DNA from: Acetatifactor sp.
GTDB lineage: Bacteria; Bacillota; Clostridia; Lachnospirales; Lachnospiraceae
Length of the DNA stretch: 64,000 nt
NCBI GenBank assembly: GCA_024695935.1
Contig: JAILHH010000020.1
Location: 1 to 64,000, forward strand
Reading direction: 5' to 3'
Both the position numbers and the translations under genes were made by a program. Of this stretch, positions 1,734 through 19,694 are shown piece by piece (the first letter of the stretch is position 1; each line of letters begins with the position of its first letter). A model generated the notes under the pieces. That model was not told where the DNA came from and searched no databases. It saw only the letters and a program-made list of their open reading frames with translations.

Positions 1734-1768
1734 ATTAATAAATTTGTGAAATATGGAGGGTATGAACA

Positions 1769-2551: not shown

Positions 2552-2596
2552 GATAAAAAACGCCCTTGTAATTAGAGAGTGGTTGATGGTATAGTA

Positions 2597-2700: not shown

Positions 2701-2744
2701 CATATCCCTGATCACAGGCATAGTGTTTTCGTGGAGGAATATAT

Positions 2745-3218
2745 ATGGGAAAAATATTTAAGTTTTACAAGGATGTGGACACGGATCAGATAATCGCTTC
2801 ACAGTATCTGCTCTTTCCCACCATTGATGAAATGAAAACTCATACATTTGAATCTTTGAATTCAGATTTTGCAAAGGATGTCCGTCCGGGGGATTTTGTG
2901 GTGGCGGATGAGAATTTCGGCTGCGGCTCATCAAGAGAGCAGGCTCCGGGAGTTTTGAAGGCTCTTGGCGTAAAGGCAGTCATAGCAAAGTCTTTTGCCA
3001 GGATATTCTACAGAAATTCCATCAATATAGGCATGCCCGTCATCGTCTGCAAGGACCTCTATGAAGCAGTAAAAGACGGAGATGAGATGGAACTGGACCT
3101 TGAAAACGGCGTCATAAGAGCAAACGGTAAAGAGTATTCCTGTACAAAGCTGCCCGCAAAGATGCAGGAGATCTTGGATCAGGGCGGTCTTATCGCATCG
3201 CTTAACAGGGAGGAATAA
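2745..3218 (+). CDS. Isopropylmalate dehydratase-type small subunit, copy 1
   Basis: The 157-residue swivel subunit of an aconitase-superfamily hydro-lyase. Family marks are the N-terminal DTDQII strand, the GCGSSREQAP serine loop that contacts substrate phosphate/carboxylate (about residues 63-72) and AKSFARIFYRNSIN. The substrate-selecting loop after the DTD strand reads YLLF. Archaeal homoaconitases carry an Arg here (YLRT) and isopropylmalate isomerases a hydrophobic residue (YLVY), so a non-polar side chain is favoured, as in isopropylmalate, citramalate or dimethylmalate. It is first in a four-gene operon and lies 4 bp from its large-subunit partner. No leuA or leuB is adjacent, so leucine synthesis is not proven. 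Confidence 0.85.
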   Translation: MGKIFKFYKDVDTDQIIASQYLLFPTIDEMKTHTFESLNSDFAKDVRPGDFVVADENFGCGSSREQAPGVLKALGVKAVIAKSFARIFYRNSINIGMPVIVCKDLYEAVKDGDEMELDLENGVIRANGKEYSCTKLPAKMQEILDQGGLIASLNREE

Positions 3219-3222
3219 AGAT

Positions 3223-4470
3223 ATGGGTATGACAATGGCAGAAAAGATCATCGCTCTTGCAGCGGGGATCGAAAAGACAAAGGCCGGCGATATCGAGACC
3301 GTGACTTTGGACAGACTTATGAGTAATGACGGTACAACCCATCTTACCATAGATATGTATAATAAATTAAAAAATCCCCACATCGCAGATGTGGAGAAGC
3401 TTGTATGGATCGTGGATCACAATATCCCCTCAGATTCTCCAAAGACTGCCGCATCTCACAAAAAGATGAGAGATTTCGCAGCGGAGCACGGTATCACCTA
3501 CTACGAGGGAGAGGGCGTTTGCCATCAGATCATGATGGAAAATCATGTGCGCCCCGGAGAGCTGATATTCGGAGCAGACTCACACACCTGCGCCTACGGA
3601 GCTCTGGGAGCCTTTGGAACAGGCGTGGGATGCACGGATTATCTCTATGCCATGGTAACGGGAACAAGCTGGCTTTTGGTTCCGGAGAGTCTCAAATTCA
3701 ATCTTCACGGTAAACTCAGAGAAGGCGTGTACGCAAGAGACCTGATCCTCACTATAATCGGAAGAATCGGTGCAAACGGTGCCAACTATAAGGCAATGGA
3801 GTTTTGCGGGGAGGGTCTTGCCACTCTTTCCATGGCTGACAGGATTTCAATCTGTAATCTCTGCGTTGAAGCAGGTGCGAAGACTGCTCTCATGGAAGTG
3901 GATGATGTGGCCCTTGACTATCTGAAGGCACACGGGAGAGAGCCAAAGGCTATTGTAAAGTCAGACCCGGATGCGGTTTATTCGGAAACTTACGATATAG
4001 ACCTTAATGAGATTGAACCTATCGTGGCAAAGCCGCATTTTGTGGACAATGTGGTTCCTGCAAAAGAGTGTGAGGGCGTAAAGATCGACGAAGCATTCCT
4101 GGGCTCATGCAACAATGGTCGTATAGAGGATCTTCGCGTAGGAGCAGAGGTCATAAAGGGCAAAAAAGTTGCGGAGAGAGTCAGATTTTTAGTGGTTCCC
4201 GCAAGCCGTGCGGTGTATGAGCAGGCCATGAAGGAAGGACTTTTAGACATATTCCTGGATGCCGGTGCCATCATTATGAACCCCAACTGTTCGGTATGCT
4301 GGGGCGCATGTCAGGGAGTTATCGGTGAGGGTGAGACTCTGATCTCAACAGGCACCAGAAACTTTAAGGGAAGAGCCGGACACAAGGATTCATTCGTATA
4401 TCTGGCGTCGGCTGCCACGGTTACTGCATCTGCCATAGCAGGAAAGATCACAACCGCAGACAGAGTATAA
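3223..4470 (+). CDS. Isopropylmalate dehydratase-type large subunit, copy 1
   Basis: A 415-residue Fe-S hydro-lyase catalytic subunit of the short, archaeal-like LeuC/HacA/DmdA branch. The [4Fe-4S] ligands are visible as Cys in GSCNNGR (about residue 292) and the pair in PNCSVCWG (about 352 and 355). ADSHTCAYGALGAFGTGVG (about 118-136) is the conserved substrate and cluster loop. Two family positions are unusual: GSCNNGR instead of GSCTNGR, and PNCSVCWGACQG instead of the commoner PGCGPCLGRHQG. These suggest a specialised substrate. It pairs with the small subunit just upstream. Several clustered ATGs (3223, 3229, 3235) make the exact start uncertain. Confidence 0.85.
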   Translation: MGMTMAEKIIALAAGIEKTKAGDIETVTLDRLMSNDGTTHLTIDMYNKLKNPHIADVEKLVWIVDHNIPSDSPKTAASHKKMRDFAAEHGITYYEGEGVCHQIMMENHVRPGELIFGADSHTCAYGALGAFGTGVGCTDYLYAMVTGTSWLLVPESLKFNLHGKLREGVYARDLILTIIGRIGANGANYKAMEFCGEGLATLSMADRISICNLCVEAGAKTALMEVDDVALDYLKAHGREPKAIVKSDPDAVYSETYDIDLNEIEPIVAKPHFVDNVVPAKECEGVKIDEAFLGSCNNGRIEDLRVGAEVIKGKKVAERVRFLVVPASRAVYEQAMKEGLLDIFLDAGAIIMNPNCSVCWGACQGVIGEGETLISTGTRNFKGRAGHKDSFVYLASAATVTASAIAGKITTADRV

Positions 4471-4486
4471 ATTTGGAGACAGACAA

Positions 4487-4981
4487 ATGAGCGAGACATT
4501 CAAAGCAAAAATCTGGAAACTTGATGATGATATAGATACAGATATCGTTCTTCCCACGGAATACCTTGCATTAAAGACAGTGGAGGATATGAAGCCCTAT
4601 GCATTTTCGCCCCTTCGCCCTGAACTGGCGGCACAGATAAAGCCCGGGGATATGATAGTTGCGGGCAAAAATTTCGGATGCGGTTCCTCCAGGGAGCAGG
4701 CTCCTGAAGTGGTAAAGGCTCTCGGTGTAAGCTGCATCGTAGCACAGTCCTTTGCCAGGATATTCTTTAGAAATGCCATAAACAACGGCCTGTTACTCAT
4801 TGAAAATCCTGATCTTCATGACGCGGTAAAAGAGGGAGATGAGGCACTTGTAACTCCCGGCGAGAAAATCGTGGTAAACGGAAAAGAATTTCCCATTGCC
4901 TCCCTTCCGGAGAATCTGATGGAGATCCTGAATGCAGGCGGGCTGGTAAAGGCCATGCGAAAGAGAAACGGTCTGGATTAG
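4487..4981 (+). CDS. Isopropylmalate dehydratase-type small subunit, copy 2
   Basis: A 164-residue swivel subunit, clearly homologous to the gene at 2745 but diverged. The conserved marks are DDDIDTDIVLP, GCGSSREQAPEV (about residues 64-75) and AQSFARIFFRNAIN. The substrate loop reads YLAL, again without the Arg of homoaconitase, and differs from the YLLF of copy 1. The ATG at 4487 follows TTGGAGACAGACAA. It lies 16 bp after copy 1's large subunit and 9 bp before its own large subunit, so all four genes form one transcript. Confidence 0.85.
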   Translation: MSETFKAKIWKLDDDIDTDIVLPTEYLALKTVEDMKPYAFSPLRPELAAQIKPGDMIVAGKNFGCGSSREQAPEVVKALGVSCIVAQSFARIFFRNAINNGLLLIENPDLHDAVKEGDEALVTPGEKIVVNGKEFPIASLPENLMEILNAGGLVKAMRKRNGLD

Positions 4982-4990
4982 GGGGAAGTT

Positions 4991-6229
4991 ATGAAACATA
5001 CATTGGTTGAAAAAATATTCGGAAATAAAGTGGGTCATGAGGTTAAACCGGGGGATATCATCACCGTTCCCGTTGACTGGTGCATGGTGGATGACATCAT
5101 GGCAAAGTTTTGTATCGGTAAATTCGAGGAGATGGGCTTTACAAAAGTTTATGATCCCGAAAAGATAGTCCTTATCTATGATCACTTCCTGCCATCCACT
5201 CAGGCGGATGATACGGTGGCATTTCATGCAGGTGATGCATTTGCGGAAAAATACGGTATCAAAAATGTCCACAGAACGGACGGAATCTGTCATCAGCTTA
5301 TGACTGAGGCAGGTTATGTAAAACCCGGTGATATCGCCTTTGGTACGGACAGTCATACCGTCACCTACGGCTGCGTGGGAGCTTTTTCCACGGGTATAGG
5401 ATATACGGAGATGGCAGGGATTTTGGGAACCGGTGAGATCTGGATAAAGGTTCCCGAGACCATAAAGGTTCAGATCGAAGGAAAGCTTAATGAGGGTGTC
5501 ACATCAAAGGATGTGATCCTGAGGATAATCGGGGACCTCACCGCATCGGGAGCCACTTATCAGGCACTTGAGTTTTGCGGAAGCACCGTGTCTGACATGA
5601 GCGTTGCATCCCGCATGACCATGACAAACATGGCAGTGGAAGCCGGCGCAAAATGCGGTATATGTATCCCTGATGAGAAAACCGCAGAGTATTGCAATAT
5701 CCCCTATGATGAAAAGATAAAGAATTTATGCCCGGACGAAGGAGCTTCTTACAGTAAAGTGCTTACATACAAGGCAGAGGATTTTGTGCCTGTCATGGCC
5801 TGCCCTTCACTTGTTGACAATATTCATCCCGTGTCTGAACTAAAGGGTACAAAGGTTGACGAAGTATTCCTGGGCTCTTGCACAAACGGAAGGCTTGAAG
5901 ACCTGCAGGCTGCGGCAGCTGTATTAAAGGGCAGAAAAAAAGCCCCTCACGTGCAGTTTATCGTTACTCCTGCCAGCAGAAAGGTTTATAAAGAGGCATT
6001 AAACGACGGAACTTTGGAGATACTTTCAAAAGCCGGTGCGATCATCACCACTCCCGGATGCGGACTTTGCTGTGGAAGAGCAGGCGGAGTTCTCACGGAT
6101 GATGAGGTAGTTGTTGCCACAAACAACCGCAATTTCCTTGGACGAATGGGAACGAGCAAAGTAAAGATTTATCTGGCAAGTCCGGTTATGGCAGCAAAGG
6201 CAGCGCTTTTCGGAGAGATCACAGAATAA
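4991..6229 (+). CDS. Isopropylmalate dehydratase-type large subunit, copy 2
   Basis: A 412-residue large subunit with canonical cluster ligands: Cys in GSCTNGR (about residue 297) and the pair in PGCGLCCGRAGG (about 357 and 360). It also has GTDSHTVTYGCVGAFSTGIG. Its motifs are closer to the usual LeuC pattern than those of copy 1, so this pair is the better candidate for ordinary isopropylmalate isomerase and copy 1 for a variant role. The ATG at 4991 follows GGGGGAAGTT. The operon ends at a 24-bp perfect inverted repeat. Confidence 0.85.
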   Translation: MKHTLVEKIFGNKVGHEVKPGDIITVPVDWCMVDDIMAKFCIGKFEEMGFTKVYDPEKIVLIYDHFLPSTQADDTVAFHAGDAFAEKYGIKNVHRTDGICHQLMTEAGYVKPGDIAFGTDSHTVTYGCVGAFSTGIGYTEMAGILGTGEIWIKVPETIKVQIEGKLNEGVTSKDVILRIIGDLTASGATYQALEFCGSTVSDMSVASRMTMTNMAVEAGAKCGICIPDEKTAEYCNIPYDEKIKNLCPDEGASYSKVLTYKAEDFVPVMACPSLVDNIHPVSELKGTKVDEVFLGSCTNGRLEDLQAAAAVLKGRKKAPHVQFIVTPASRKVYKEALNDGTLEILSKAGAIITTPGCGLCCGRAGGVLTDDEVVVATNNRNFLGRMGTSKVKIYLASPVMAAKAALFGEITE

Positions 6230-6230: not shown

Positions 6231-6299
6231 CAGAAATAAAATAAAGCCCTTTGGAGAATGAGTCTATGACTTATCCCAAAGGGCTTTATTTTATTTCTG
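6231..6299. terminator. Bidirectional terminator between the convergent operons
   Basis: A perfect 24-bp inverted repeat (6231-6254 / 6276-6299) has a GC-rich core (GCCCTTTGG / CCAAAGGGC) flanked by A-rich and T-rich arms. It can therefore end transcription from both sides. It overlaps the last codons of apbE and begins 2 bp after the dehydratase operon. Confidence 0.9.
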
Positions 6300-7397
6300 A
6301 ATATAATCTTTAAATCCGTCGGTATAAACCTTGGTCTCATCCGCAAGGATCCACATCACTTCCGTGTCATCAAGGCTTTCTGCCAAAGCCTTTCCCTCCT
6401 CTAAACTCATGTTAAAGAGGGCAGTGGACAGGGCATCTCCCATTCCGGCATCCTTGTTTAAAATGGATACGGACAAGAATTCATTTTCCGGGAAAAGTGT
6501 GTCCGGGTTAATGATATGATGGTATCTGACTCCGTCCACAGTGTAGAATCTTTGATAACTTCCGCTGGTGGTTAGAGCCATATCGTTGATGCTTAGGACT
6601 TCGACATAATTTATTTCCGCCTCTGTATCGGGATTTTGGATAGCCACAGTCCAGCTTCCACCGTCGGGCTTTGGACCGATGCTTCTGACGTTTCCGCCTG
6701 CGTTTATGGTATAGTTTACGGCGCCCATCTCTCTTAAGCCTTCGGAGATGCGCTCTAAAGCATATCCTTTTGCAATGGCGCCCACATCGCATTTTAACAA
6801 TGGATCTTTGTAAAAAACAGTGAAGTTTTCTTCATCTATCACCACGTCGTCCATGTTGCAGTGCTTTGAAGCTTCTGTCAGTTCTTCCATGGAGGGAACC
6901 CTTGTCTTTGAAGGGTCGTTTAATGCTTCTTCCCTGTAATTATGCCAGATCTCGAGCACGGCGCCAAAGGCAAAATTTGTCTTTCCGTTTGTGTTCTCAT
7001 AAATTCTCTTTCCTTCTTTAAACAGAGCGATGATATCAGGGTCAACCTCTACGGGCTCTGTTCCTGCATGCTGATTTATGTAATAGAGGTTTACTCCGCC
7101 CGATGGAAGAGAGTTGTAATTGTCATACAATCCGTCCAGCCTTTGAAGTTCAGATTCAACATATTGACTTTTTTCAAGGAAATCTTCTTCGCTTTTCTCA
7201 TATCCGATGACATTTGTCACGGTATCAAAGTAGTCAAAGTACACTTCGGAATATTTTTCGGGAGCTTTTTCAAAGCCTAAATTCCCGTTGCATCCTGTAA
7301 GGGACAGTAGAGAAACAATAACAGTCAGGGGTAAGAGCTTTTTAAAGTTTTTTTCCCAGCCAAAAGTTTTTATATTGAAAGTGTCCGGTTTAAGCAT
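6291..7397 (-). CDS. apbE: FAD:protein FMN transferase
   Basis: A lipoprotein of about 368 residues that transfers FMN from FAD onto Thr/Ser of secreted or membrane proteins such as RnfG, RnfD and FMN-binding lipoproteins. Family marks are AGTEPVEVDPDI, the core DVGAIAKGYALERI, the NAGGNVRSIG loop, HHIINPDT and the metal/FAD-binding GMGDALSTALF near the C-terminus. The N-terminus has a hydrophobic segment ending in LSLTGC (lipobox), so the enzyme is anchored outside the membrane. The second ATG (7397) is preferred because AAAGGA sits 8 nt upstream; the first ATG (7406) overlaps that ribosome binding site. It is second in a minus-strand operon behind a probable substrate, and a hairpin lies between them. 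Confidence 0.93.
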   Translation of the reverse strand: MLKPDTFNIKTFGWEKNFKKLLPLTVIVSLLSLTGCNGNLGFEKAPEKYSEVYFDYFDTVTNVIGYEKSEEDFLEKSQYVESELQRLDGLYDNYNSLPSGGVNLYYINQHAGTEPVEVDPDIIALFKEGKRIYENTNGKTNFAFGAVLEIWHNYREEALNDPSKTRVPSMEELTEASKHCNMDDVVIDEENFTVFYKDPLLKCDVGAIAKGYALERISEGLREMGAVNYTINAGGNVRSIGPKPDGGSWTVAIQNPDTEAEINYVEVLSINDMALTTSGSYQRFYTVDGVRYHHIINPDTLFPENEFLSVSILNKDAGMGDALSTALFNMSLEEGKALAESLDDTEVMWILADETKVYTDGFKDYIQK

Positions 7398-7411
7398 TCT
7401 GTTCATCCTTT

Positions 7412-7464: not shown

Positions 7465-8481
7465 TTACTTTGAAACAGGCTCTGCATCAGCGATACCAAT
7501 TGCAATGATCTCCTGAAGAGGAGTGATTGAAATTGTACAACCTGCAAGAAGATCGGGATCAGCGCTTGTAGCGATGTTGTGGTGCTCATCCTTGGGCTCT
7601 GTAGCGATACCTGTAACCTCAGCAGATGTCTTTCCTACGATATAATCTTCGAAAGTACCTGCCTGCTGATACCACTCTGCGATAGCGTTTGCATAAGCAA
7701 CCATTCCGTAGTGCTTCTTGAGCTCTTTCTTTGAACCTTCGAAGTTGAATGCGGTTACGTTGCCTGTTGTATCAAAGCTGATCTTAGGCTGGATCTCATC
7801 GATAAGGTCAACGAGGATCTTGCCGTCTGCATCTGTTACAACTGCACTGAAGTTAGAGTACATATTTGCTGCACCCTCTGCCTCGTCAGATGCTGATGCT
7901 GTAGAAGAATCAACCTCTGTGCTTACGCCGAGACCGTGATTGAAAGAAGAAGCCTTGAAGCTCTTAGCATACTCATCATTCATAGCCTTAACGATTGCTT
8001 CTTTGAATACGTTTACGCCGATTGTACATCCTGCAAGGATAGCTTCATCAGCTGCAACTTCGTGACCTGATACGTTGAATGATGTTGCAAGATTAGCAAC
8101 TTCGTCAACTGTCATACCAACTACTGATTTAGCAAAGAAATCAGCCTGCTCGTTCCACTCAGCGATAGCGCCGCCGTATGTCTTCATGTTATAGTCAGCA
8201 CCCTTCTGCTGCTTAGAACGTGTGTCAACTTCGTTAGCTGCCTGAACCTGGCCGCCTTCGATAGTCATCTTTGTCTGTGCTACGTCAAGTTTGCATGAAA
8301 CAATCTTGCCGCTTGCATCTGTTACAACAGTGGCAACTGTTGCGTCAACCTGAGCGGTACCTTCTGAGGAACCGTCCTCAACTACAATACCCATTCCGAG
8401 GGTATATTCCTTCTCTCCACATCCTACGAGTGAAAACACCATAGATGAAGCAAGAAGAAGTGCCATTAATTTTTTCTTCAT
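7465..8481 (-). CDS. Two-domain FMN-binding lipoprotein
   Basis: A 338-residue secreted lipoprotein (signal peptide, lipobox LVGC with Cys21) built from two tandem FMN_bind domains, about residues 35-160 and 205-330, joined by a Ser/Ala/Glu-rich linker. This resembles PplA-type extracellular flavin proteins used in extracellular electron transfer. Each domain ends in a segment aligned to the flavinylation site but reading LAGCTIG (Thr153) and LAGCTIS (Thr316), with Cys in place of Ala of the usual GAT motif. Covalent FMN on these Thr residues is plausible, given the adjacent apbE, but not certain. Codon use is strongly biased, which suggests abundant protein. It is divergent from rnfC and shares a promoter element with it. 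Confidence 0.85.
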   Translation of the reverse strand: MKKKLMALLLASSMVFSLVGCGEKEYTLGMGIVVEDGSSEGTAQVDATVATVVTDASGKIVSCKLDVAQTKMTIEGGQVQAANEVDTRSKQQKGADYNMKTYGGAIAEWNEQADFFAKSVVGMTVDEVANLATSFNVSGHEVAADEAILAGCTIGVNVFKEAIVKAMNDEYAKSFKASSFNHGLGVSTEVDSSTASASDEAEGAANMYSNFSAVVTDADGKILVDLIDEIQPKISFDTTGNVTAFNFEGSKKELKKHYGMVAYANAIAEWYQQAGTFEDYIVGKTSAEVTGIATEPKDEHHNIATSADPDLLAGCTISITPLQEIIAIGIADAEPVSK

Positions 8482-8531: not shown

Positions 8532-8560
8532 AGTATAAGAAAAAAGGGTGAAAATGTCAA
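8532..8560 (-). promoter_or_regulatory. Promoter of the flavin lipoprotein-apbE operon
   Basis: Read on the minus strand, TTGACA (8560-8555) and TATACT (8537-8532) are separated by exactly 17 bp, a near-consensus vegetative promoter. The -35 box is the end of the element ATTGTACGTTGAC, which is repeated at the rnfC promoter. Confidence 0.85.
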
Positions 8561-8667
8561 CGTACAATGTAAAAATCGATTTAATTAGCGTAAAAATTTG
8601 TGGTTTATGAGTAAAAGTTGTATGTAAATATAAACGAAGATAGTGTAAAATTTAATTGTACGTTGAC
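8556..8667. promoter_or_regulatory. 13-bp inverted repeat shared by the divergent promoters
   Basis: GTCAACGTACAAT at 8556-8568 and its perfect reverse complement at 8655-8667 are 86 bp apart. Each copy covers the -35 hexamer of its own divergent promoter plus eight bases upstream (ATTGTACG). The placement suits an activator or repressor that controls both operons together. It does not match the Rex site pattern. Confidence 0.7.
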
Positions 8668-8691
8668 TGATTGGACGCAAAATGATATAAC
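8663..8691 (+). promoter_or_regulatory. Promoter of the rnf operon
   Basis: TTGACT (8663-8668) and TATAAC (8686-8691) are spaced by 17 bp. They lie 46 bp upstream of the chosen rnfC start and overlap the right arm of the shared 13-bp element. Confidence 0.8.
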
Positions 8692-8737: not shown

Positions 8738-10069
8738 ATGTCATTTTTCAAGATGAGTGGTGTAGTCGTTCCCCACATGAAAAACACCTGCAAGATGCAG
8801 GCGGAACGAATGCCGGCTCCCAAAAGGGTGGTCATTCCGATGAATATGCATATCGGAGCACCTGCTAAGCCGGTTGTACAGGAAGGAGATATTGTAGGCG
8901 TGGGCCAGCTTATCGGCGAGGCCGGAGGATTTGTCTCAAGTCCCGTGTACGCTTCAGTATCCGGAAAAGTAACAAAGGTCGACAAGATCGTGGCATTAAA
9001 CGGAGCATCAGCAGACGCGGTATTCATCGAGTCTGATGGGGAGATGCGTCCCTTCGAAGGTATCAAAGCTCCTTCGATAAACGGTTTTGAAGATTTTGTT
9101 GCAGCAGTAAGAGACAGCGGTATCGTGGGTCTTGGCGGAGCAGGCTTCCCCACGGCGGTAAAACTTGGTGTGAAGGACTTGTCACTTGTACAGGAAGTTC
9201 TCATCAACGGAGCCGAGTGCGAGCCTTATATCACCAGTGATACGAGAACCATGCTGGACAGAGCCGATGATATAAAGGAAGGAATCGAACTTCTGGAAAA
9301 ATATCTCGGTGCAAAGACGATCATCTTCGGTATTGAAAAGAACAAGCCTGAAGCCATCGCAAAAATGAAGGAAATTACGTCCGGAGACAGTGCCGTTTCC
9401 GTAAAGGAACTTCCCAGTATCTACCCTCAGGGCGGAGAGAAAGTTCTTATTTATAATCTTACCGGAAAAGTGGTACCCGAGGGAAAACTTCCTCTGGACG
9501 TGGGATGTATAGTAATTAATGTGACTACACTGGCATCAATTGCCAAATATATAAGGACAGGAATGCCTTTGGTAGAAAAATGCCTTACCGTTGACGGTTC
9601 CGCAGTGGCAAGTCCAAAGAATCTCATTGTTCCCATCGGAACAAGTCTCAGGGATGTCTATGAATTTGCAGGCGGCTTTAAGGCAGAGCCGAAGAAAGTA
9701 CTCCTGGGCGGACCCATGATGGGAATCGCAGTAAAAGACCTTGATCAGCCCGTGATGAAGAATACCAATGCAACATTGGCATTTGCTGAAAAGGAAGCAG
9801 AAAGACCCGAGGAAAATCCCTGTATCCACTGCGGCAGATGTGTAAACAGCTGTCCTCTCGGATTAAACCCCGTGGCATTTGCAAAGGCTCTCAGCTTAAA
9901 TGACTGTGAGGCTTTGGAAGAATTAAAGATCAATCTCTGTATGGAGTGCGGATGCTGTGCATTTAACTGCCCTGCAAAGAGAGATCTGATCGCCCGTCAT
10001 AAACTTGCAAAGAGCGAGCTTCGCACATATCAGCAAAAGCGTGCGGAGCAGGAAAAGAAGGAGGCATAG
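8738..10069 (+). CDS. rnfC: Rnf complex subunit C (NADH-binding Fe-S/FMN subunit)
   Basis: A 443-residue peripheral subunit that exchanges electrons with NAD(H) on the cytoplasmic face. It shows an N-terminal barrel-sandwich (residues 1-80), the flavin/NADH site GLGGAGFPTAVK, then NGAECEPYI, a SLBB-like part and, near the C-terminus, two [4Fe-4S] motifs: CIHCGRCVNSCP and CMECGCCAFNCP. The frame is open further upstream, but the start at 8738 has GGGAGG 6 nt before it and gives the normal N-terminus; upstream codons would fall inside the promoter. It is first gene of rnfCDGEA. Confidence 0.95.
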   Translation: MSFFKMSGVVVPHMKNTCKMQAERMPAPKRVVIPMNMHIGAPAKPVVQEGDIVGVGQLIGEAGGFVSSPVYASVSGKVTKVDKIVALNGASADAVFIESDGEMRPFEGIKAPSINGFEDFVAAVRDSGIVGLGGAGFPTAVKLGVKDLSLVQEVLINGAECEPYITSDTRTMLDRADDIKEGIELLEKYLGAKTIIFGIEKNKPEAIAKMKEITSGDSAVSVKELPSIYPQGGEKVLIYNLTGKVVPEGKLPLDVGCIVINVTTLASIAKYIRTGMPLVEKCLTVDGSAVASPKNLIVPIGTSLRDVYEFAGGFKAEPKKVLLGGPMMGIAVKDLDQPVMKNTNATLAFAEKEAERPEENPCIHCGRCVNSCPLGLNPVAFAKALSLNDCEALEELKINLCMECGCCAFNCPAKRDLIARHKLAKSELRTYQQKRAEQEKKEA

Positions 10070-10073
10070 AACA

Positions 10074-11009
10074 ATGGAAGAGAATTTAAAAGTGTCTGTG
10101 TCACCCCATATTTTTTCTAAGCGCACCACAAGTAATCTGATGCTTGACGTGGTCATAGCACTTATCCCCGCTGCAGTTGCATCCGTAGTGATCTTTGGAG
10201 CAAGGAGCCTTGCAGTGATCGCGACATGCGTACTTTGCAGTATTATATCTGAAACTTTATTTAATCTCATTGTAAAGAGAAAGCAGACCATCGGAGATTT
10301 CTCGGCAATAATCACAGGACTTTTGCTGGCACTCAATCTCCCTGTAAACATTCCTCTCTGGCAGGCAGCCATCGGTTCCTTTGTGGCGATCATCGTTGTA
10401 AAGAATCTCTTCGGAGGCCTTGGATACAATTTTGCAAACCCTGCCATCACAGGACGTATCTTCATGCTCATAGCTTTTACAGGCTCCATGACGGAGGCTG
10501 TTCTTCCCAAGGCAGTTGATACCGTTGCGGGAGCAACACCCCTTGGGGCACTTGCCATGGGCGAAGAGGTTGATGCAAGTCTCCTCGACATGTTCCTGGG
10601 ACTTCGCGGCGGTGCACTGGGTGAAACCTGTGCTCTTGCTCTTTTGATCGGAGGATTGTATCTGATCTGCCGCAAGGTGATCACATGGCATACACCTGTG
10701 ACATTTATACTTACGGTATTTGTACTTTCTCTTATCTATTCGGGAAGCTTTGAGACAGCTCTTATCTATGTCCTCTCAGGCGGACTTTTGATCGGTGCGA
10801 TCTTTATGGCAACGGATTACGTGACCACACCCACCACGGCTCTCGGTCAGGTGGTGTTCGGTCTCGGCTGCGGACTCATCACATGCCTTATCCGTTTCTA
10901 CGGCAGTTTCCCCGAAGGTGTATCCTTCTCAATACTGTTTATGAATATTCTCACACCATACATTGAGAAGCTCACCATGAAGAAACCCTTTGGAGGTGTG
11001 AAGAAATGA
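10074..11009 (+). CDS. rnfD: Rnf complex subunit D (flavinylated membrane subunit)
   Basis: A 311-residue integral membrane protein of the NqrB/RnfD family. It keeps GGLGYNFANPAITGR, the flavinylation motif DTVAGATPLG with Thr155 as expected covalent FMN acceptor, and the MATDYVTTPTT loop. The start ATG at 10074 follows AGGAGGCATAGAACA and lies 4 bp after rnfC; an earlier in-frame ATG lies inside rnfC. Unlike RnfA and RnfE in this operon, nothing in RnfD looks altered. Confidence 0.95.
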   Translation: MEENLKVSVSPHIFSKRTTSNLMLDVVIALIPAAVASVVIFGARSLAVIATCVLCSIISETLFNLIVKRKQTIGDFSAIITGLLLALNLPVNIPLWQAAIGSFVAIIVVKNLFGGLGYNFANPAITGRIFMLIAFTGSMTEAVLPKAVDTVAGATPLGALAMGEEVDASLLDMFLGLRGGALGETCALALLIGGLYLICRKVITWHTPVTFILTVFVLSLIYSGSFETALIYVLSGGLLIGAIFMATDYVTTPTTALGQVVFGLGCGLITCLIRFYGSFPEGVSFSILFMNILTPYIEKLTMKKPFGGVKK

Positions 11010-12247
11010 AAAACAATGTAAAAAGCGTGGTAACGCTCACAGCGCTTTGTGTTGTTGTGACAGGCGTTTTGGCGGTTACAAACTATTTCACGGCACCAAA
11101 GATCGAAGAAAACAAAAAAGCTGCCGCAAATGCGGCTTTCGTTGAGGTAATGCCTGAGGGAACAGGCTTTGAGGAGGTTGAACTCCCCGCAAACGCTCCC
11201 GCCACCGTGACAAATCTCTACAGAGAGACTTCAGGTCAGGGATATGTTGCAAAGCTTGTGACCACCAGCCAGTATTCATCAGGTGATATGGGTATCACCG
11301 TGGGAATCGGTACGGACGGTGTGATAAAAGGTGTTGCCATCACTTCCTATAATGAGACAAAAGATTTCGGCGACTATCCTTATTCATATGTGGGTGCAGA
11401 TTCCGCATTAAATGATATCGATGTGTTTGCCGGAGCTACATACTCATCAATGGCTTTCAAAAATGCCATTCTTGATACCTTCAATATGCTGATTGCAAAC
11501 GGAGATGTATCAGAGGGGCAAAAGAGTGCCGAGACACTTATGGCAGAACTTTTACCCACTGTATTTCCCGGAAGCTGTAACGGAAGCGGCCTTCCCCAGC
11601 TTGTTGAGACAGAGGCTGCAGGTTTTACAAAGGCATATGCCACAGGAAATGACACAGGTTTTGTCGCTCTCTCTGAGTCTGATGCAGGAACCGTTGTCAG
11701 CGTGATGAATGCCTTCGGAGCAGTAAAATGCTACGACCTTGAGGGTAATGAAGTGGCGGGACCCGTGGATGAAATGAAGGCTGCATTCAAAGTCCTTGCA
11801 GATGAAAACAAGGATGCCAACTTAAGTAATGCTCTTAAGGCTTACGGAGATGAGGCAGCTGAGATGACAGCACTTGAAAATGTACCCGCATTCGGTTCTG
11901 TGACAGGCGGATTTAGTGTGACAACAGAAGAAAATACATATTACATATTTAATATCAAGACCTTCGGATACATGAACGAACTCATGGAGATGGCAGTAGT
12001 TCTCGACTCAGAGGGCAAGGTTGTAAATTACAGAACAGTGACGGATCTGATCCTTCACGGCGAGTATTTTACAGAACACGGCCTCGATGACAAAGAAGCT
12101 TATCTTTCTCAGTTTAAGGGCGTGGATGAAGGAAGCTACTCCGACGAAACTGCTATCGTGACCGGAGCAACATTTACATCCGATGCGGTGAACGATTCAA
12201 TTCACTCTGCTTTTGATGCATTTAAGGCAGTAAAGGAGGCAGAATAA
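11006..12247 (+). CDS. rnfG: Double-length Rnf subunit G with two FMN domains
   Basis: The 413-residue protein has one N-terminal membrane anchor (about residues 9-29) and two FMN_bind domains facing outside. Domain 1 ends in DVFAGATYSS (acceptor Thr145) and domain 2 in AIVTGATFTS (Thr389), so two covalent flavins are expected. Standard RnfG is about 190-210 residues with a single domain. The second domain is not a copy of the first at nucleotide level, so the fusion is old. It overlaps rnfD by 4 bp and rnfE by one base, so it is translated with them. The extra flavin would extend the extracytoplasmic electron path. Confidence 0.9.
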   Translation: MKNNVKSVVTLTALCVVVTGVLAVTNYFTAPKIEENKKAAANAAFVEVMPEGTGFEEVELPANAPATVTNLYRETSGQGYVAKLVTTSQYSSGDMGITVGIGTDGVIKGVAITSYNETKDFGDYPYSYVGADSALNDIDVFAGATYSSMAFKNAILDTFNMLIANGDVSEGQKSAETLMAELLPTVFPGSCNGSGLPQLVETEAAGFTKAYATGNDTGFVALSESDAGTVVSVMNAFGAVKCYDLEGNEVAGPVDEMKAAFKVLADENKDANLSNALKAYGDEAAEMTALENVPAFGSVTGGFSVTTEENTYYIFNIKTFGYMNELMEMAVVLDSEGKVVNYRTVTDLILHGEYFTEHGLDDKEAYLSQFKGVDEGSYSDETAIVTGATFTSDAVNDSIHSAFDAFKAVKEAE

Positions 12248-12885
12248 TGAATAAAACAGCAATTTTCCTTAAGGGAATCATCAAAGAAAATCCCGTGCTG
12301 GTGCTGGTTTTAGGCGCATGCCCCACACTTGCCGTGACCACAAACGTGCTTGCAGCTCTCTATATGGGTATTGCGGTTTTGGCAGTCCTTGTTTGCTCAA
12401 ACCTTTGTATCTCAGCTCTAAAGAATCTGATCGGAGATAATTTAAAATTTGTTGCAAACATCCTGATAATTACAGGCTTTGTGAGCCTTGTTCAGATGCT
12501 TATGGGAGCATTTCTTCCAAAGGCTTCCGATATGCTCGGTATTTATTTTACATTGATAGCCGTAAACGGTGTCCTTCTCTGTGAGGCCGGTGATTTCGCC
12601 CGCAATAATAAAGTTGTGGATTCGGTTTTAAGCGCTTTGGGAACGGGAATAGGATTTACCTGTGCTCTGTTTGTCATCGCACTTGTCAGAGAGATTTTCG
12701 GAAACGGAACCTTTGCCGGAATCGAGATCCCTTTCCTTGCAGATTACAAGATATCACTTTTAAATGCAACTCCCGGAGGATTTTTGGTACTGGGCCTTGT
12801 TATGGCTCTTCTATCTGCCATCAACAAAAAGCCCGTCGAAGAGATCTGCTTTGAAAATCAAAAGGAGGGCGAAGTAAATGCTTAA
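12247..12885 (+). CDS. rnfE: Rnf complex subunit E, one Fe-S cysteine replaced
   Basis: A 212-residue six-helix membrane subunit of the NqrD/RnfE family. In the first inverted half it keeps the cysteine motif LGACPTLAVTT (Cys25). In the second half the usual NC(I/V)(I/V)(L/V)GRAEAFA reads NGVLLCEAGDFA: the ligand Cys is Gly108 and a Cys appears four residues later (Cys112). The downstream CALFVIALVREIFGNGT block is conserved, so the alignment is secure. In Nqr/Rnf these cysteines bind an intramembrane [2Fe-2S] cluster shared with RnfA. The ATG overlaps the rnfG stop. Confidence 0.9.
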   Translation: MNKTAIFLKGIIKENPVLVLVLGACPTLAVTTNVLAALYMGIAVLAVLVCSNLCISALKNLIGDNLKFVANILIITGFVSLVQMLMGAFLPKASDMLGIYFTLIAVNGVLLCEAGDFARNNKVVDSVLSALGTGIGFTCALFVIALVREIFGNGTFAGIEIPFLADYKISLLNATPGGFLVLGLVMALLSAINKKPVEEICFENQKEGEVNA

Positions 12886-13471
12886 AAGTCTTTTGGTCAT
12901 AATGATGTCGTCAGTGCTCGTAAACAATTATGTATTTTCAAGATACATGGGCTTTGACAGGATGTTTGATACGTCAAAAAAGGCAAAAAAAGTCGGAAGC
13001 TTCGGACTTTTGGTCACAGTTGTGATGGTGCTTGCAGCCCTTGTTACATGGCCTCTTAACGCCTTTGTGATGGAGCCGCTTGGACTTAACTTCCTTCAGA
13101 CGGTATGCTTTGTATTTATAATTGCGGGAATATCTTTCCTTGCTGAAATTGTGATAAAAAAATGTTTCCCCGCTCTTTATACTGAGCTTGGAAATGTATG
13201 GCCCCTTATCCTGTGTAACAGTGCTGTTCTGGGTGTTACCCTCAGCAATATTTCCGCAGGATACGGATTCGGAGAGTCAGTATTTTCATCTCTCGGATGC
13301 GGCCTCGGATTTCTCCTTGCAATGTGGATGTTTGGCGGAGTAAAGGACAGACTTGAGATCGCTGTTCCTCCCAAATACTTTAAGGGGATTCCTATTCTTC
13401 TCATCTCTGCATTCATTGTCTCACTTGCCTTTTATGGATTTGGCGGTATCATCGAGACGATATTTGCATAA
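12878..13471 (+). CDS. rnfA: Rnf complex subunit A, both Fe-S cysteines replaced
   Basis: A 197-residue six-helix membrane subunit of the NqrE/RnfA family. It aligns end to end with the family (SSVLVNNYVFSRYMGF, SAVLGVTLSNI, VKDRLEIAVPPKYFKG, FYGFGGI). The two cluster cysteines are gone: the GLCPF motif reads GFDRM (Asp27) and TTNCAVLG reads LCNSAVLG (Ser115), with a non-aligned Cys at 113. It overlaps rnfE by 8 bp and is the last gene before a terminator. The usual following gene, rnfB, is absent. Confidence 0.9.
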   Translation: MLKSLLVIMMSSVLVNNYVFSRYMGFDRMFDTSKKAKKVGSFGLLVTVVMVLAALVTWPLNAFVMEPLGLNFLQTVCFVFIIAGISFLAEIVIKKCFPALYTELGNVWPLILCNSAVLGVTLSNISAGYGFGESVFSSLGCGLGFLLAMWMFGGVKDRLEIAVPPKYFKGIPILLISAFIVSLAFYGFGGIIETIFA

Positions 13472-13483: not shown

Positions 13484-13531
13484 AAAAATCAGCACCCGCT
13501 TGCCTCAAAAGGTGAACAGGTGCTGTTTTTA
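13484..13531 (+). terminator. Terminator of the rnf operon
   Basis: CAGCACC (13490-13496) pairs with GGTGCTG (13519-13525), followed by TTTTTAT and preceded by an A-rich arm. It begins 13 bp after the rnfA stop, so the operon really ends at rnfA. Confidence 0.85.
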
Positions 13532-13569: not shown

Positions 13570-14001
13570 ATGAAGACAGACAGAGATCATGAAAATAAAT
13601 CAGAAAAAAATACCGGTGACAGGTCGGTATCATATAAAAAGGATATTATCTTTATAGGCATATTTATTCTGGTGGGACTCTTTTTAGCCGCAGTGGTCTT
13701 TTTGACAAAGCAGACCGGAAAGAGTGTCACGGTAAGTGTATCCGGAAAAGATGTCATAAGCTTTAACCTGGATGAAGACAGGGAGTATATGATAGAGGGA
13801 AAAGACGGCGGACAAAACCTCCTTATCATACGTGGCGGCAAGGCCTGGATCGAGGAGGCCAACTGCAGGGACGGCCTCTGTATCAATATGGGAAAGATCG
13901 ATTCCGTAGGTCAGTCGGTCATATGCCTTCCAAATGAAGTGGTGGTCAGTATCGGCAGTGGAGAGGTAACGGATGAGGGACCGGACATTGTGGTATATTG
14001 A
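13570..14001 (+). CDS. NusG domain II-containing exported protein
   Basis: A 143-residue protein with a charged N-terminus, one transmembrane segment (about residues 26-47) and an extracytoplasmic NusG_II-type beta domain. It contains VSVSGKDVISFNLDED, the conserved EANCRDGLCINMGKI disulfide/cysteine pair and SVICLPNEVVVSI. Its biochemical role is not established. It is recurrently found with Gx transporters, ApbE and FMN-binding proteins, as here, which hints at an accessory role in extracytoplasmic redox or quinone chemistry. The start at 13570 has only a weak ribosome binding site. Confidence 0.8.
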   Translation: MKTDRDHENKSEKNTGDRSVSYKKDIIFIGIFILVGLFLAAVVFLTKQTGKSVTVSVSGKDVISFNLDEDREYMIEGKDGGQNLLIIRGGKAWIEEANCRDGLCINMGKIDSVGQSVICLPNEVVVSIGSGEVTDEGPDIVVY

Positions 14002-14044: not shown

Positions 14045-14542
14045 ATGAAAACTTCGAAATTTACAAAATACGGGCTGTTGATCGCCCTGGCGCTTATCAT
14101 GAGCTATATTGAGGCTCAGGTCCCCGTGTTTTTTGCAATACCGGGTATAAAGCTTGGCCTTACAAATGTTGTTGTGCTCTTTGCGCTTTATGCCATGGAT
14201 TTTAAAAGCGCCTTTATCATCAATATTTTCAGGATCATCCTGGTGGGCTTTATGTTCGGAAACGGCGTGAGTATCCTCTTTTCACTTGCCGGAGGGTTCT
14301 TAAGCCTGTTGGTCATGGTGCTGTTAAAGAAATTTACGGGACTAAAGATAATCACCGTTTCGGTGGCCGGCGGTATTGCTCATAACATCGGTCAGATAAT
14401 AGTAGCCATGCTGATGCTTCAGACCCGCTCCATTGCATGGTATCTGCTGGTACTCTGGTTTACGGGTATTGCCGCGGGAGTGCTGGTGGGTGTTATCGGC
14501 GGCGAGATAGTAAAGAGAGTCAGATGGGAGGATCAGAATTGA
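14045..14542 (+). CDS. Gx transporter family (heptaprenyl diphosphate synthase component I-like) membrane protein
   Basis: A 165-residue protein with five to six hydrophobic segments. It starts with the family pattern YGLLIALALIMSYIEAQVP and continues with GIKLGLTNVVVLFALY, ending in VLVGVIGGEIVKRV. The family (Hpre_diP_synt_I) was first described as the small subunit of heptaprenyl diphosphate synthase, but its fold resembles ECF-type substrate-binding membrane components. No polyprenyl synthetase follows here, so a transport role is more likely. It lies 43 bp after the NusG_II gene and overlaps the rhomboid gene. Confidence 0.8.
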   Translation: MKTSKFTKYGLLIALALIMSYIEAQVPVFFAIPGIKLGLTNVVVLFALYAMDFKSAFIINIFRIILVGFMFGNGVSILFSLAGGFLSLLVMVLLKKFTGLKIITVSVAGGIAHNIGQIIVAMLMLQTRSIAWYLLVLWFTGIAAGVLVGVIGGEIVKRVRWEDQN

Positions 14543-16086: not shown

Positions 16087-16261
16087 GGCTGAAGCGTCCG
16101 AAGGCGCATTCATCGGACAGAAGTCCGAGGGCTTTTTAAAAAGATCTTTATTGTTCAAACATTAAAAATACGTATTTAAGTATATCCTGAAGATATGCAC
16201 TGCTTTGAAGGGCGGGCATATCTTCTTCTTTTTTAAAACAACATATGAGGAGAGAGTAAAA
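16087..16261 (+). promoter_or_regulatory. Attenuator-type leader RNA of the nickel operon
   Basis: The leader has a 5' folded part and a 3' switch. In the 5' part, GCGUCC/GGCGC (16094-16107, GAA loop) and CGGAC/GUCCG (16114-16127) form two hairpins. The pentamer GTCCG occurs twice (16096-16100 and 16123-16127) and either copy can pair with CGGAC. A 12-bp palindrome AAATACGTATTT lies at 16166-16177. In the 3' part, GAAGATATGC/GCATATCTTC (16189-16198/16216-16225) plus TTCTTTTTT is a perfect terminator. The upstream GTATATC (about 16179-16185) can instead pair with GATATGC and disrupt it. This is the layout of a riboswitch or another attenuation system. It does not fit the cobalamin or NiCo riboswitch patterns I know. 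Confidence 0.6.
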
Positions 16262-17329
16262 ATGCATATTCCTGAGAATTATTTAAGTCCCGCCACCTGT
16301 GCGGTAATGACTGCCGCAATGGTTCCGGTGTGGGCAAGAGCGGTAAAAAATGTGAAAGCTGAGCTTCCAAAGGAAAAGATATCCATGATAGGAGTGGGTG
16401 CAGCATTTTCCTTTGTGGGCATGATGTTTAATGTTCCCATGCCGGGAGGCACCACGGGACATGCTGTGGGAGGAACCCTTCTGGCAGCCCTTCTTGGACC
16501 GGATGCGGCCTGCATTGCGGTATCAATGGCACTTTTATTGCAGGCACTTATCTTTGGAGACGGAGGAATACTTGCCTTTGGAGCAAATGCTTTTAACATG
16601 GCTTTTGCCATGCCATACATCGGATATGGCATATACAGACTTTTGCTTAAGCTCTTTAAGGTTGACATAAAGGATAGATCCGGGTCAGACAAAAAAATAA
16701 TTTCCGCAGGTGTGGGCTCATACATAGGTATAAATGCGGCGGCTTTTTTGGCTGCGGTTGAATTTGGTATCCAGCCCTATTTCTTTAAGGATGCCGTAGG
16801 AAAGCCCATGTACTGCCCTTACGGACTTAATATTTCCATTCCCTCAATGATGATAGGACATTTAACAGTATTTGGCCTTGCGGAGATCATATTCACGGTG
16901 GCTATACTTGCATATGTATTAAAGACATCACCGGATCTGGTTCACGGCGCTGCAACTGTTGAAACTGAAAAAAGAGTAAATAAAAAGGGTAAGTTTACTT
17001 CCTATCTTCCTCTGCTCTTAGCTGTTTTGATAGCCTTTGTTCCTCTTGGACTTTTGGCCGAGGGAACAGCCTGGGGCGAGTGGGGAAGCGATGAGATCGC
17101 AGAAGTTGTAAGTGACGGAGAAGCTCTTGGCTTTGTCCCTCAGGGAATGGAGAGCGGATTTTCTCTCGAAGCCCTTATTCCCGACTATGCCATTGAGGGA
17201 GTGCCTGATATCATTGCCTATATCGCATCTGCAGTGATCGGTGTGGCAGTGCTTATCATAATCTTCAGACTTATATCTTCACTTTCGGATAAAAACAGGA
17301 TCCATAATGTGGAGCGCAGTAACAGTTAA
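16262..17329 (+). CDS. cbiM: Nickel/cobalt ECF transporter substrate component, CbiM-CbiN fusion
   Basis: A 355-residue membrane protein. The start at 16262 gives the essential MHIPENYLSP N-terminus, whose His2 ligates the metal in this family; GAGGAGAGAG precedes it. The CbiM body spans about residues 1-235 (MPGGTTGHAVGG, GDGGILAFGANAFNMAFAMP). A C-terminal CbiN/PDGLE-like part (about 245-350) has an extracytoplasmic loop between two helices. Members of this family carry Co(II) or Ni(II). The following lar genes make nickel far more likely, as in LarMNQO of Lactiplantibacillus. An in-frame ATG at 16205 lies within the attenuator and is rejected. Confidence 0.9.
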   Translation: MHIPENYLSPATCAVMTAAMVPVWARAVKNVKAELPKEKISMIGVGAAFSFVGMMFNVPMPGGTTGHAVGGTLLAALLGPDAACIAVSMALLLQALIFGDGGILAFGANAFNMAFAMPYIGYGIYRLLLKLFKVDIKDRSGSDKKIISAGVGSYIGINAAAFLAAVEFGIQPYFFKDAVGKPMYCPYGLNISIPSMMIGHLTVFGLAEIIFTVAILAYVLKTSPDLVHGAATVETEKRVNKKGKFTSYLPLLLAVLIAFVPLGLLAEGTAWGEWGSDEIAEVVSDGEALGFVPQGMESGFSLEALIPDYAIEGVPDIIAYIASAVIGVAVLIIIFRLISSLSDKNRIHNVERSNS

Positions 17330-17347
17330 TAGAAAACAGGTTTTTTA

Positions 17348-18157
17348 ATGAAAAAAAATGAGTTATATCCCGGTTTTATGCCGGATTGGATGATGCAAAA
17401 AAACGAATACGTACCGTCAAAGGACCGGGAAGGCTTTCTAACAAAAAGCCTTCTTGGTTTTTTGCGTCTTTTCAGGCATTTTTCCATGAGAGGAAATTCT
17501 GATATTTCGGTTATGGCCGCAGGAATGGGGCTGATCCTGACACTGGGGCTCATAATCCTTGTGGCACTTACGGATTCCCTGACATATTTAGCATGTGTTG
17601 GGGCTTTGGTTCTTGCTTTTTTAAGTTTTTCAAAGCTTGAGATCATGAAAAGGGCTCTGGGAACAAGCCTTAGCGTAATGGCTTTTACATTTGTGATAAT
17701 GCTCCCGTCATATTTTTTATATGGGTCTTTAAGCTATATATACATACCGGTCAAGGTTTTTTTGTCCGTATCCATGCTGTCCGTATATACATCCATCGTG
17801 CCATGGAACAGGATGACTGCGGCATTAAGGCTTTTTGGAATGCCGAACATATTGATATTTGTGCTGGATATGACCATTCATTACATACTCATTTTGGGAA
17901 ATGTGGCATTTGATATGCTGGCAGCCTTAAAACTAAAGAGCATCGGAAAAAACAGGGACAAAGTAAATTCTTTTTCAGGCATAAGCGGTACAGTCTTTAT
18001 GAAGGCCGTCACAATGTCAAAGGAGACGGAGGATGCGCTGACCTGCAGGCTTTTTGACGGAAAATACGATTCAAAAAAGGAAAGGATTGTTTTTGCCGAT
18101 TTTATCCCGCTGTTTATCCTTTGTATTTTTATTTTTTTGTATATATTTGTGGGATAA
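17348..18157 (+). CDS. cbiQ: ECF transporter transmembrane (T) component, CbiQ type
   Basis: A 269-residue membrane protein with about five helices. It has the coupling-helix region around AALRLFGMPNILIFVLDMTIHYI and GTVFMKAVTMSKETEDALTCRLFDG near residues 215-240, where CbiQ/EcfT proteins carry the conserved short motifs that contact the ATPase. The N-terminal 40 residues are hydrophilic and longer than usual. It begins 18 bp after the CbiM-N gene. Together with the next gene it forms the energising module for nickel uptake. Confidence 0.85.
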   Translation: MKKNELYPGFMPDWMMQKNEYVPSKDREGFLTKSLLGFLRLFRHFSMRGNSDISVMAAGMGLILTLGLIILVALTDSLTYLACVGALVLAFLSFSKLEIMKRALGTSLSVMAFTFVIMLPSYFLYGSLSYIYIPVKVFLSVSMLSVYTSIVPWNRMTAALRLFGMPNILIFVLDMTIHYILILGNVAFDMLAALKLKSIGKNRDKVNSFSGISGTVFMKAVTMSKETEDALTCRLFDGKYDSKKERIVFADFIPLFILCIFIFLYIFVG

Positions 18158-18219
18158 AACAGTTTAATGATGTCAAAACTGTGATAAAATTATGAAAAGA
18201 CCTTTGAGGGGGCGACAGA

Positions 18220-18894
18220 ATGGGAAGACATTTACAGATAGAATTGGAGGATGTGTACTTCAGATATGAGGACACACCTGCGCTGAATGGCATATCATTA
18301 AAGGTTTACGAGGGTGAGACCATAGGCTTAAAAGGAGACAACGGAAGCGGAAAGTCAACACTTTTAAGGCTCTTAAACGGTCTGGTATTTCCTGACAGCG
18401 GCAGATATCTGCTGGGCGGAAATGAGATAAACGGTAAGGCTATGAGGGATGAACTGTTTGCCAAGTCCGTCCACACAAAGATCGGATACGTGTTTCAAAA
18501 TTCCGACACCCAGCTTTTTTGCGGAAGTGTCAGGGAGGAAGTGGAATTCGGACCAAGACAGATGGGTTTATCCGATGAGGAAGTTTGGAGGCGAACAGAG
18601 GATGTGCTTAAGATGCTTGACCTTGAAAAAATACAGAACCGTCCCCCGTATCACTTAAGCGGCGGAGAAAAGAAAAAGACGGCTCTTGCCTCGGTCCTTT
18701 CCATGAATCCGGATATTCTGATGCTGGATGAGCCCATGAACGGACTGGACAAAAAGACGGTTGAGTGGCTGACGGGATTCATGTCACTTTGGAAAAAAGC
18801 CGGAAAGACACTTATAGTTGCAACCCACGATGAGAACCTTCTCTATGAAACGGCGGATAAGGTGATCGAACTGCATGAGGGCAAGATCATATAA
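18220..18894 (+). CDS. cbiO: ECF transporter ATPase, CbiO type
   Basis: A 224-residue cytoplasmic ABC ATPase. It has Walker A GDNGSGKST (about residues 40-48), the Q-loop in FQNSDTQLFCGSVREEVEFGP (typical of CbiO/EcfA), signature LSGGEKKKTALA (about 145-156), Walker B ILMLDEPMNGLD and the switch His in VATHDENL. A single ATPase is present, so it likely works as a homodimer. It starts 62 bp after cbiQ with GAGGGGG as ribosome binding site. A short dyad (ACAGTTT/AAACTGT) in that gap may be a weak internal signal. Confidence 0.92.
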   Translation: MGRHLQIELEDVYFRYEDTPALNGISLKVYEGETIGLKGDNGSGKSTLLRLLNGLVFPDSGRYLLGGNEINGKAMRDELFAKSVHTKIGYVFQNSDTQLFCGSVREEVEFGPRQMGLSDEEVWRRTEDVLKMLDLEKIQNRPPYHLSGGEKKKTALASVLSMNPDILMLDEPMNGLDKKTVEWLTGFMSLWKKAGKTLIVATHDENLLYETADKVIELHEGKII

Positions 18895-18938
18895 AACTTT
18901 GAATCTTTTGTGATCGGAAAAACCCTGACGGAGGAAAT

Positions 18939-19694
18939 ATGGACCAGGAAAAAATGCGGGAACTGCTTAAAAAATATAAAAATGGCGAAGCCACGGAGGA
19001 GGATGTGATCCTGAAACTAAAGGAAGCTCCTTTCGAAGATCTTGGTTTTGCAAAACTTGACAGTCACAGAGCCCTAAGACAGGGTATCGCGGAAGTGATA
19101 TACGGTGCAGGAAAGACACCGGAGCAGATCCTGGAGATAGCAAAAGCCGCAAAGGCAAAGGGCCAGGAAACCATTCTGATAACCAAGATGAGTAAGGATG
19201 CCGCCGAAGTTTTAAGGGGTGAAGTCGGATTAAATCTTGACTATGATGAGCTGAGTAAAACCGGTATCTGCGGAAAGATGCCTGCAAAAAACGGACGAGG
19301 CAAAATTGCCATAGTCACAGGGGGCACCAGCGACATGCCTGTTGCCGAGGAAGCGGCAAGATGCGCAGAGGCCTTTGGAAACGAGGTGGACAGGATATAT
19401 GATGTGGGTGTGGCAGGACTCCACAGACTCCTCTCAAACCTTGACAGGATAATGGAGGCGAAGGTTGTTATCGCCATTGCCGGTATGGAAGGTGCTCTTG
19501 CAAGTGTGGTGGGTGGCCTTGTGGATGTGCCTGTTTTGGCAGTTCCCACAAGCGTCGGATACGGAGCAAGCTTTAACGGGCTCTCTGCTCTTTTATCCAT
19601 GCTTAATTCCTGTGCCAGCGGTGTCAGTGTGGTAAACATCGACAACGGTTTCGGAGCTGCATATCAGGCCAGCATGATAAATCATATAAAATAA
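18939..19694 (+). CDS. larB: Nickel-pincer cofactor biosynthesis protein LarB
   Basis: A 251-residue protein. LarB carboxylates and hydrolyses nicotinic acid adenine dinucleotide, the first step to the nickel-pincer nucleotide used by lactate racemase and related enzymes. It has the PurE-like core: IVTGGTSDMPVAEEAA (about residues 124-139), AGMEGALASVVGGLVDVPVLAVPTS and GYGASFNGLSALLSMLNSCA. The N-terminal 60 residues carry the LarB-specific FAKLDSHRALRQGIAEVIYG stretch. It follows cbiO by 44 bp, with GGAGG before the ATG. Together with larC and larE it makes a complete cofactor set. Confidence 0.93.
   Translation: MDQEKMRELLKKYKNGEATEEDVILKLKEAPFEDLGFAKLDSHRALRQGIAEVIYGAGKTPEQILEIAKAAKAKGQETILITKMSKDAAEVLRGEVGLNLDYDELSKTGICGKMPAKNGRGKIAIVTGGTSDMPVAEEAARCAEAFGNEVDRIYDVGVAGLHRLLSNLDRIMEAKVVIAIAGMEGALASVVGGLVDVPVLAVPTSVGYGASFNGLSALLSMLNSCASGVSVVNIDNGFGAAYQASMINHIK

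Follow-up and report, generated by a model that had tools for sequence, protein, structure and literature searches.

An Rnf-like complex of Acetatifactor sp. without RnfB and with three replaced cluster ligands: a candidate one-way exporter of electrons from NADH to extracytosolic flavin

In models of the Rnf complex electrons follow a U-shaped path, Na+ transport being driven by a cluster shared by RnfA and RnfE, with RnfD serving only as a conductor; the assignment of the pump is debated, RnfD/NqrB having been proposed earlier for that role. In A. woodii the intramembrane [2Fe-2S] cluster, AE1, is held by four cysteines, Cys25 and Cys113 of RnfA and Cys25 and Cys108 of RnfE, and mutation of the AE1 ligands abolishes ferredoxin:NAD+ activity (PMC11889175). 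Na+-NQR is held to descend from a duplicate of Rnf that lost rnfB and gained NqrF (PMC12174285), and two-subunit, one-way Nqr/Rnf-like systems have been described (Meheust 2021, PMC8238504; Huang 2024, PMC11334425). Here we analyse an rnf operon of the gut-type bacterium Acetatifactor sp. located at positions 8738-13471 of the first 64,000 nucleotides of contig JAILHH010000020.1 (assembly GCA_024695935.1), the whole of this stretch being referred to as the window. With a probability of roughly 0.7 the operon encodes a second Rnf paralogue in which only one of the two transmembrane electron branches is left, that is, a non-pumping exporter that would carry electrons from NADH to extracytosolic flavin. 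No report of an Rnf complex devoid of both RnfB and the membrane cluster was found in the open-access literature.

The locus resembles the Rnf complexes of A. woodii (9ERI) and C. tetanomorphum (7ZC6) in that C, D, G, E and A subunits, homologous along their length, are encoded in one operon, closely packed with several start/stop overlaps. All five are recognised by Pfam, RnfC and RnfD also passing the NCBIfam cut-offs and RnfA, RnfE and RnfG scoring below them. RnfC (8738..10069, on the + strand as is the rest of the operon) has an intact flavin mononucleotide (FMN)/NADH domain (GLGGAGFPT) and two intact 4Fe-4S motifs, and in RnfD (10074..11009) the site of covalent FMN attachment (DTVAGATPL) is preserved, as are Asn and Asp in the motifs of the riboflavin site. 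RnfG (11006..12247) matches PF04205 over two stretches and carries two FMN_bind domains (AGAT and TGAT); this duplication and the pairing with a flavin-type lipoprotein distinguish the locus from both reference complexes. RnfE (12247..12885) lacks one cluster ligand and RnfA (12878..13471) lacks both of its own. At the site occupied by rnfB in relatives there is a strong Rho-independent terminator (13490..13530, + strand; minimum free energy -25.2, fold z = -5.7), and neither rnfB nor a remnant of it occurs in the window. An rnfB missed in the window was considered and rejected, since a tblastn search with RnfB matched above chance level at the ferredoxin motif of RnfC alone. The gene order, the terminator 3' of rnfA without rnfB, and the intact flavin sites of RnfD and RnfG and clusters of RnfC had all been put forward in the original prediction, and open reading frames, folding, tblastn and the conserved motifs agree with it on each.

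The ligand positions were read from gap-free alignments of RnfA and RnfE to the A. woodii chains of 9ERI, with ligands assigned according to PMC11889175. Three of the four AE1 ligands are replaced: RnfA has Asp at codon 27 (12956..12958, + strand), the position of Cys25, and Ser at codon 115 (13220..13222, +), the position of Cys113, while RnfE has Gly at codon 108 (12568..12570, +), where 93 of 93 relatives have Cys. The sole ligand cysteine retained is RnfE Cys25 (12319..12321, +). These four assignments, and the statement that both proteins otherwise align along their length, are those of the original prediction, which had also named RnfA Cys113 and RnfE Cys112 as cysteines to be placed with respect to the ligand positions. 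Neither is a substitute ligand, since Cys113 aligns with Thr111, which is no ligand position, and Cys112 is Gly in a second genome of the genus (G001).

The loss of ligands is accompanied by changes in RnfA and RnfE residues to which a role in Na+ binding, in gating or in contacting the RnfB domain has been assigned (PMC11889175). With respect to A. woodii, Tyr105, Thr110, Thr111 and Arg154 of RnfA and Arg67 and Glu115 of RnfE are changed, Arg67, conserved in 89 of 92 sequences, being Lys in the window; among the Na+-site and gate residues Leu108 and Asn112 of RnfA and Leu103 and Val106 of RnfE are kept, so that this set is only partly preserved. The complex thus lacks three sequence features that define the Rnf redox pump (RnfB, the four cysteines and the full set of Na+-site and gate residues) and would work like half of an Rnf. 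Earlier, the absence of RnfB and of the membrane cluster had been taken to argue against a standard ferredoxin:NAD oxidoreductase. Several Na+-site or gating residues are lost together with them, and ion pumping has probably been lost too.

The genome (2.64 Mb, 96.6% complete and 0% contamination in the genome table) was searched for rnfB and for a second, canonical operon, as the original prediction had advised. A genome-wide PF04060 search returned one RnfB, which lies in a canonical rnfCDGEAB operon on another contig (C25) with all four cysteines present, and an unrelated hydrogenase-like sensor. A protein of 652 amino acids encoded at L008:3773-5731 (contig C7) combines a region resembling FeFe hydrogenases with an FeS domain of the RnfB type and a methyl-accepting chemotaxis domain. 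Because Asp and Ser occasionally ligate Fe-S clusters and contig C25 encodes a normal RnfB, the window complex might be imagined as a still ion-pumping Rnf that borrows this RnfB in trans, its cluster being held by Asp27, Ser115, Cys25 or other cysteines. We regard this as the least probable of the alternatives, given that Gly108 is unable to ligate, that the alternative Cys112 of RnfE is not conserved in the congener, that Na+-site residues and Arg154, which contacts the RnfB domain, are changed as well, and that relatives with a long enough contig always carry their own rnfB among the matches listed. The presence of a separate canonical Rnf would instead leave the paralogue in the window free to specialise.

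Change is unevenly distributed along the operon. Taking as near-invariant those columns conserved in at least 97% of relatives, altered residues number 21 of 55 in RnfA and 9 of 46 in RnfE, against 0 of 59 in RnfC and 0 of 54 in RnfD (Fisher p = 1e-11 for A plus E versus C plus D), and RnfG likewise retains every near-invariant residue. Branch lengths from the common ancestor with the sister locus of Agathobacter sp. SUG88 (a metagenome-assembled genome, JALEKN010000055.1; L083) give the same picture, the values for window and sister being 1.53 and 0.09 for RnfA and 1.69 and 0.40 for RnfE, but 0.18 and 0.17 for RnfC and 0.23 and 0.35 for RnfD. Change is thus concentrated in the pump half, RnfA/E. 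The strong acceleration of these two subunits, together with a ratio of nonsynonymous to synonymous rates (dN/dS) that is highest in RnfA, 0.34 over 90 codons, is what would be expected of a decaying paralogue that became redundant beside the canonical Rnf, had its rnfB deleted, and is now functionless with rnfA and rnfE drifting to pseudogenes. Between the window and G001, however, 17-55% of synonymous sites differ across the genes and all frames are nevertheless open; dN/dS lies well under 1 for each of them (0.03 for the lipoprotein, 0.06 for RnfC, 0.10 for RnfD, 0.08 for RnfG and 0.13 for RnfE), significantly so even for RnfA (about p = 3e-4, with approximate site counts). None of the 113 near-invariant residues of RnfC and RnfD is altered, and the promoter boxes described below are conserved. 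To judge from these ratios, all genes of the cluster are still under purifying selection, which speaks against simple decay, and we consider that explanation unlikely.

An assembly error was also rejected, since the congener has every replacement that its sequence can show. G001 is about 70% complete and its colinear cluster (apbE and lipoprotein gene facing C-D-G-E-A) is intact up to the contig end, which falls inside rnfA; RnfA Asp27 and RnfE Gly108 are present, and the equivalent of Ser115 and the region after rnfA are out of view. Outside the genus the ligand cysteines are kept in 94 of 94 RnfA and 93 of 93 RnfE relatives among the matches listed, so the replacement in the window is not a matter of chance. 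They are also kept in the best 80 loci of a GTDB scan wherever the gene is on the contig, and among the matches listed rnfB follows rnfA in every related locus with a long enough contig, in line with the earlier statement that clostridial operons normally run CDGEAB; the contigs of two loci (L138 and L150) end within about 100 bases after rnfA. An RnfA search over 397 genomes of the family gave 16 close relatives from other genera; each of them has the four cysteines and rnfB, including one (L054/L068) that missed the strict rnfB motif and displayed the gene on inspection of the locus. A codon pattern for position 115 of RnfA, which excludes codons beginning with T and is blind to these and to diverged flanks, matched only the window in 399 genomes of the phylum; in 391 genomes of the class it fell on chance places, the window alone lying near an Rnf reading frame among the matches taken as loci, and further class matches were not so taken. 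The cysteine-less RnfA clade envisaged in the original prediction did not extend beyond the genus in the family, GTDB and codon-pattern scans, among the matches listed. The closest relative, SUG88, whose proteins are 53-77% identical to those of the window and whose RnfD groups with those of the window and G001 with support 100/99, has the same layout of apbE and lipoprotein gene facing rnfCDGEA, the long RnfG, rnfB and all cysteines. Since all relatives listed keep the cysteines, and rnfB where the contig is long enough, and the sister keeps both in the same layout, the comparison indicates that the state without RnfB and cluster is derived from an ancestor of that layout possessing both, and among the matches listed it appears specific to the genus.

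The gene facing rnfC encodes a lipoprotein (7465..8481, - strand; lipobox LVGC) with two repeats, each having a conserved AGCT motif, that in alignments are divergent relatives of FMN_bind. Neither Pfam nor NCBIfam has an entry that matches the protein itself. A profile of the repeat built from 17 members matches PDB entry 2KZX (6.9e-7), where its AGCTI falls on SGATI (SGATIKV), the matched segment of the 2KZX chain being FMN_bind above the Pfam cut-off, and hhalign places both repeats weakly in register with the SGAT of RnfG; a fold search returned nothing significant and the whole-chain model was mediocre. We infer a di-flavin carrier with two predicted flavin sites. Lipoproteins of this family, with two AGCT-type repeats and without a Pfam or NCBIfam entry, were also seen in L060, L063, L083, L085, L088, L095, L097, L102-L104, L106, L109-L111 and L113, accompanying a clostridial Rnf clade that mostly has the two-domain RnfG. 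Over positions 1-6617 of L057, identity between the two species of the genus is markedly uneven along the cluster, about 95% at the DNA level for lipoprotein and promoter and 76-94% for their neighbours, as if part of it had been exchanged by recombination. Downstream of the lipoprotein gene lies apbE (6291..7406, - strand), encoding an FAD:protein FMN transferase (PF02424, E = 1.8e-68; FAD, flavin adenine dinucleotide), which is the sole match in the genome. ApbE would therefore have to serve both Rnf complexes, flavinylation of the canonical one on contig C25 presumably depending on it.

In the proposed mechanism, NADH would reduce RnfC through its FMN and 4Fe-4S centres, the flavins of RnfD would carry the electrons across the membrane to the two FMNs of RnfG, and RnfG would pass them to the lipoprotein and on to an extracytosolic acceptor. 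RnfA and RnfE would persist as a scaffold docking RnfG, without pumping. Electron export through this complex would be a means of NADH disposal, and the canonical Rnf would keep the ferredoxin:NAD+ pump. This route from NADH to a flavin lipoprotein had been proposed in the original prediction and is supported, as an inference, by the conservation of C, D and G and by the relation of the lipoprotein to FMN_bind. Taken in its full form, in which RnfB, the intramembrane cluster and the Na+ site are lost, the C-D-G branch works alone as a dedicated one-way exporter and RnfA/E is a cluster-less scaffold, the reading seems to us reasonably probable; the complex probably exports electrons and does not pump ions. 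The same half-complex could run inward, an extracytosolic donor reducing the lipoprotein and RnfG and RnfC making NADH, because the direction is not fixed by sequence and the electron steps of Rnf and Nqr can in principle be reversed (PMC11889175). Such electron uptake is very unlikely, as no extracytosolic donor is evident with the potential that it would need, about -320 mV or lower, and the flavinylated exporters that are known work in the outward direction (PMC8238504, PMC11334425).

Several observations weigh against outward, non-pumping export. The fast evolution of RnfA could also reflect partial relaxation; the derived state is seen in two genomes only, one of them the incomplete G001, cut inside rnfA; flavinylation of the lipoprotein is not certain, since its motif is AGCT and not the classic SGAT; and a search with PF00890 for an extracytosolic flavin reductase that might act as acceptor gave short NAD-fold matches only, with no fumarate-reductase-like enzyme or terminal reductase.

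The other described systems share parts of this arrangement. Clostridial Rnf loci of SUG88, G132 and G301 have the same genes, including the two-domain RnfG, the lipoprotein and apbE, in divergent layout in SUG88; the G132 and G301 loci are complete, and rnfB and the four cysteines, present in all three, are missing from the lineage of the window. The two-subunit Nqr/Rnf-like systems similarly keep only the branch from NAD(P)H to extracytosolic flavin, but in them the RnfD-like domain is fused to an NqrF-type NAD domain and RnfA, RnfC and RnfE are absent, whereas the window RnfD, of 311 amino acids, matches PF03116 alone without a fused PF00175 domain, and NADH would enter a full RnfCDGEA frame through RnfC. 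Multi-flavinylated RnfG has been proposed to feed other acceptors (Meheust et al., PMC8238504), and the present case would be that function made exclusive, by loss and not by fusion. Na+-NQR shares the origin from an Rnf copy with loss of rnfB; there NqrF replaced RnfB and the membrane cluster was kept, whereas here the cluster ligands are gone and no replacement was seen, nqrF not having been sought genome-wide. Nor is the window RnfC an NqrA, which has no redox cofactors: it carries two 4Fe-4S motifs and TIGR01945 fits it far better than nqrA. ApbE, the predicted flavin-type lipoprotein and an EetB-like protein resemble parts of the flavin-based extracellular electron transfer of the Listeria type (Ndh2, PplA, FmnB, EetB), with quinone and Ndh2 as input there and an Rnf-derived input in the window (Ndh2 was not searched for in the genome).

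The joint loss of RnfB, cluster and Na+-site residues, with RnfC and RnfD untouched, is independent genetic evidence for the division of labour in Rnf, which this complex makes directly testable. If the reading is true, the RnfC-D-G branch can work without the B-A/E branch, RnfA/E can persist cluster-less, and flavin-based electron export may arise from an energy pump.

Divergent promoters separate the two halves of the locus. The box GTCAACGTACAAT (8556..8568, - strand) lies over the -35 element TTGACA (8560-8555) of the lipoprotein-apbE promoter, whose -10 element is TATACT (8537-8532), and the box ATTGTACGTTGAC (8655..8667, + strand) over the -35 element TTGACT (8663-8668) of the rnfC promoter, with -10 element TATAAC (8686-8691). 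Both form a perfect 13-bp inverted pair, GTCAACGTACAAT being the reverse complement of ATTGTACGTTGAC, and are conserved in G001, which suggests that the lipoprotein-apbE and rnfC units are co-regulated.

Beyond the terminator follow a NusG domain II protein (13570..14001, + strand; PF07009), a usual companion of the cluster and its neighbour in relatives, and a membrane protein matching PF07456 (heptaprenyl diphosphate synthase I/Gx-type; 14045..14542, +), which we take to be probably an EetB-type FAD exporter. EetB has been reported beside clostridial Rnf (PMC9973259). Farther away, positions 497-6229 hold a CitMHS transporter followed by two pairs of aconitase-family small and large subunits, and positions 16205-21947 a CbiM/CbiQ/ABC metal transporter followed by a LarB-like gene with an AIRC domain, resembling a nickel/lactate-racemase cofactor operon.

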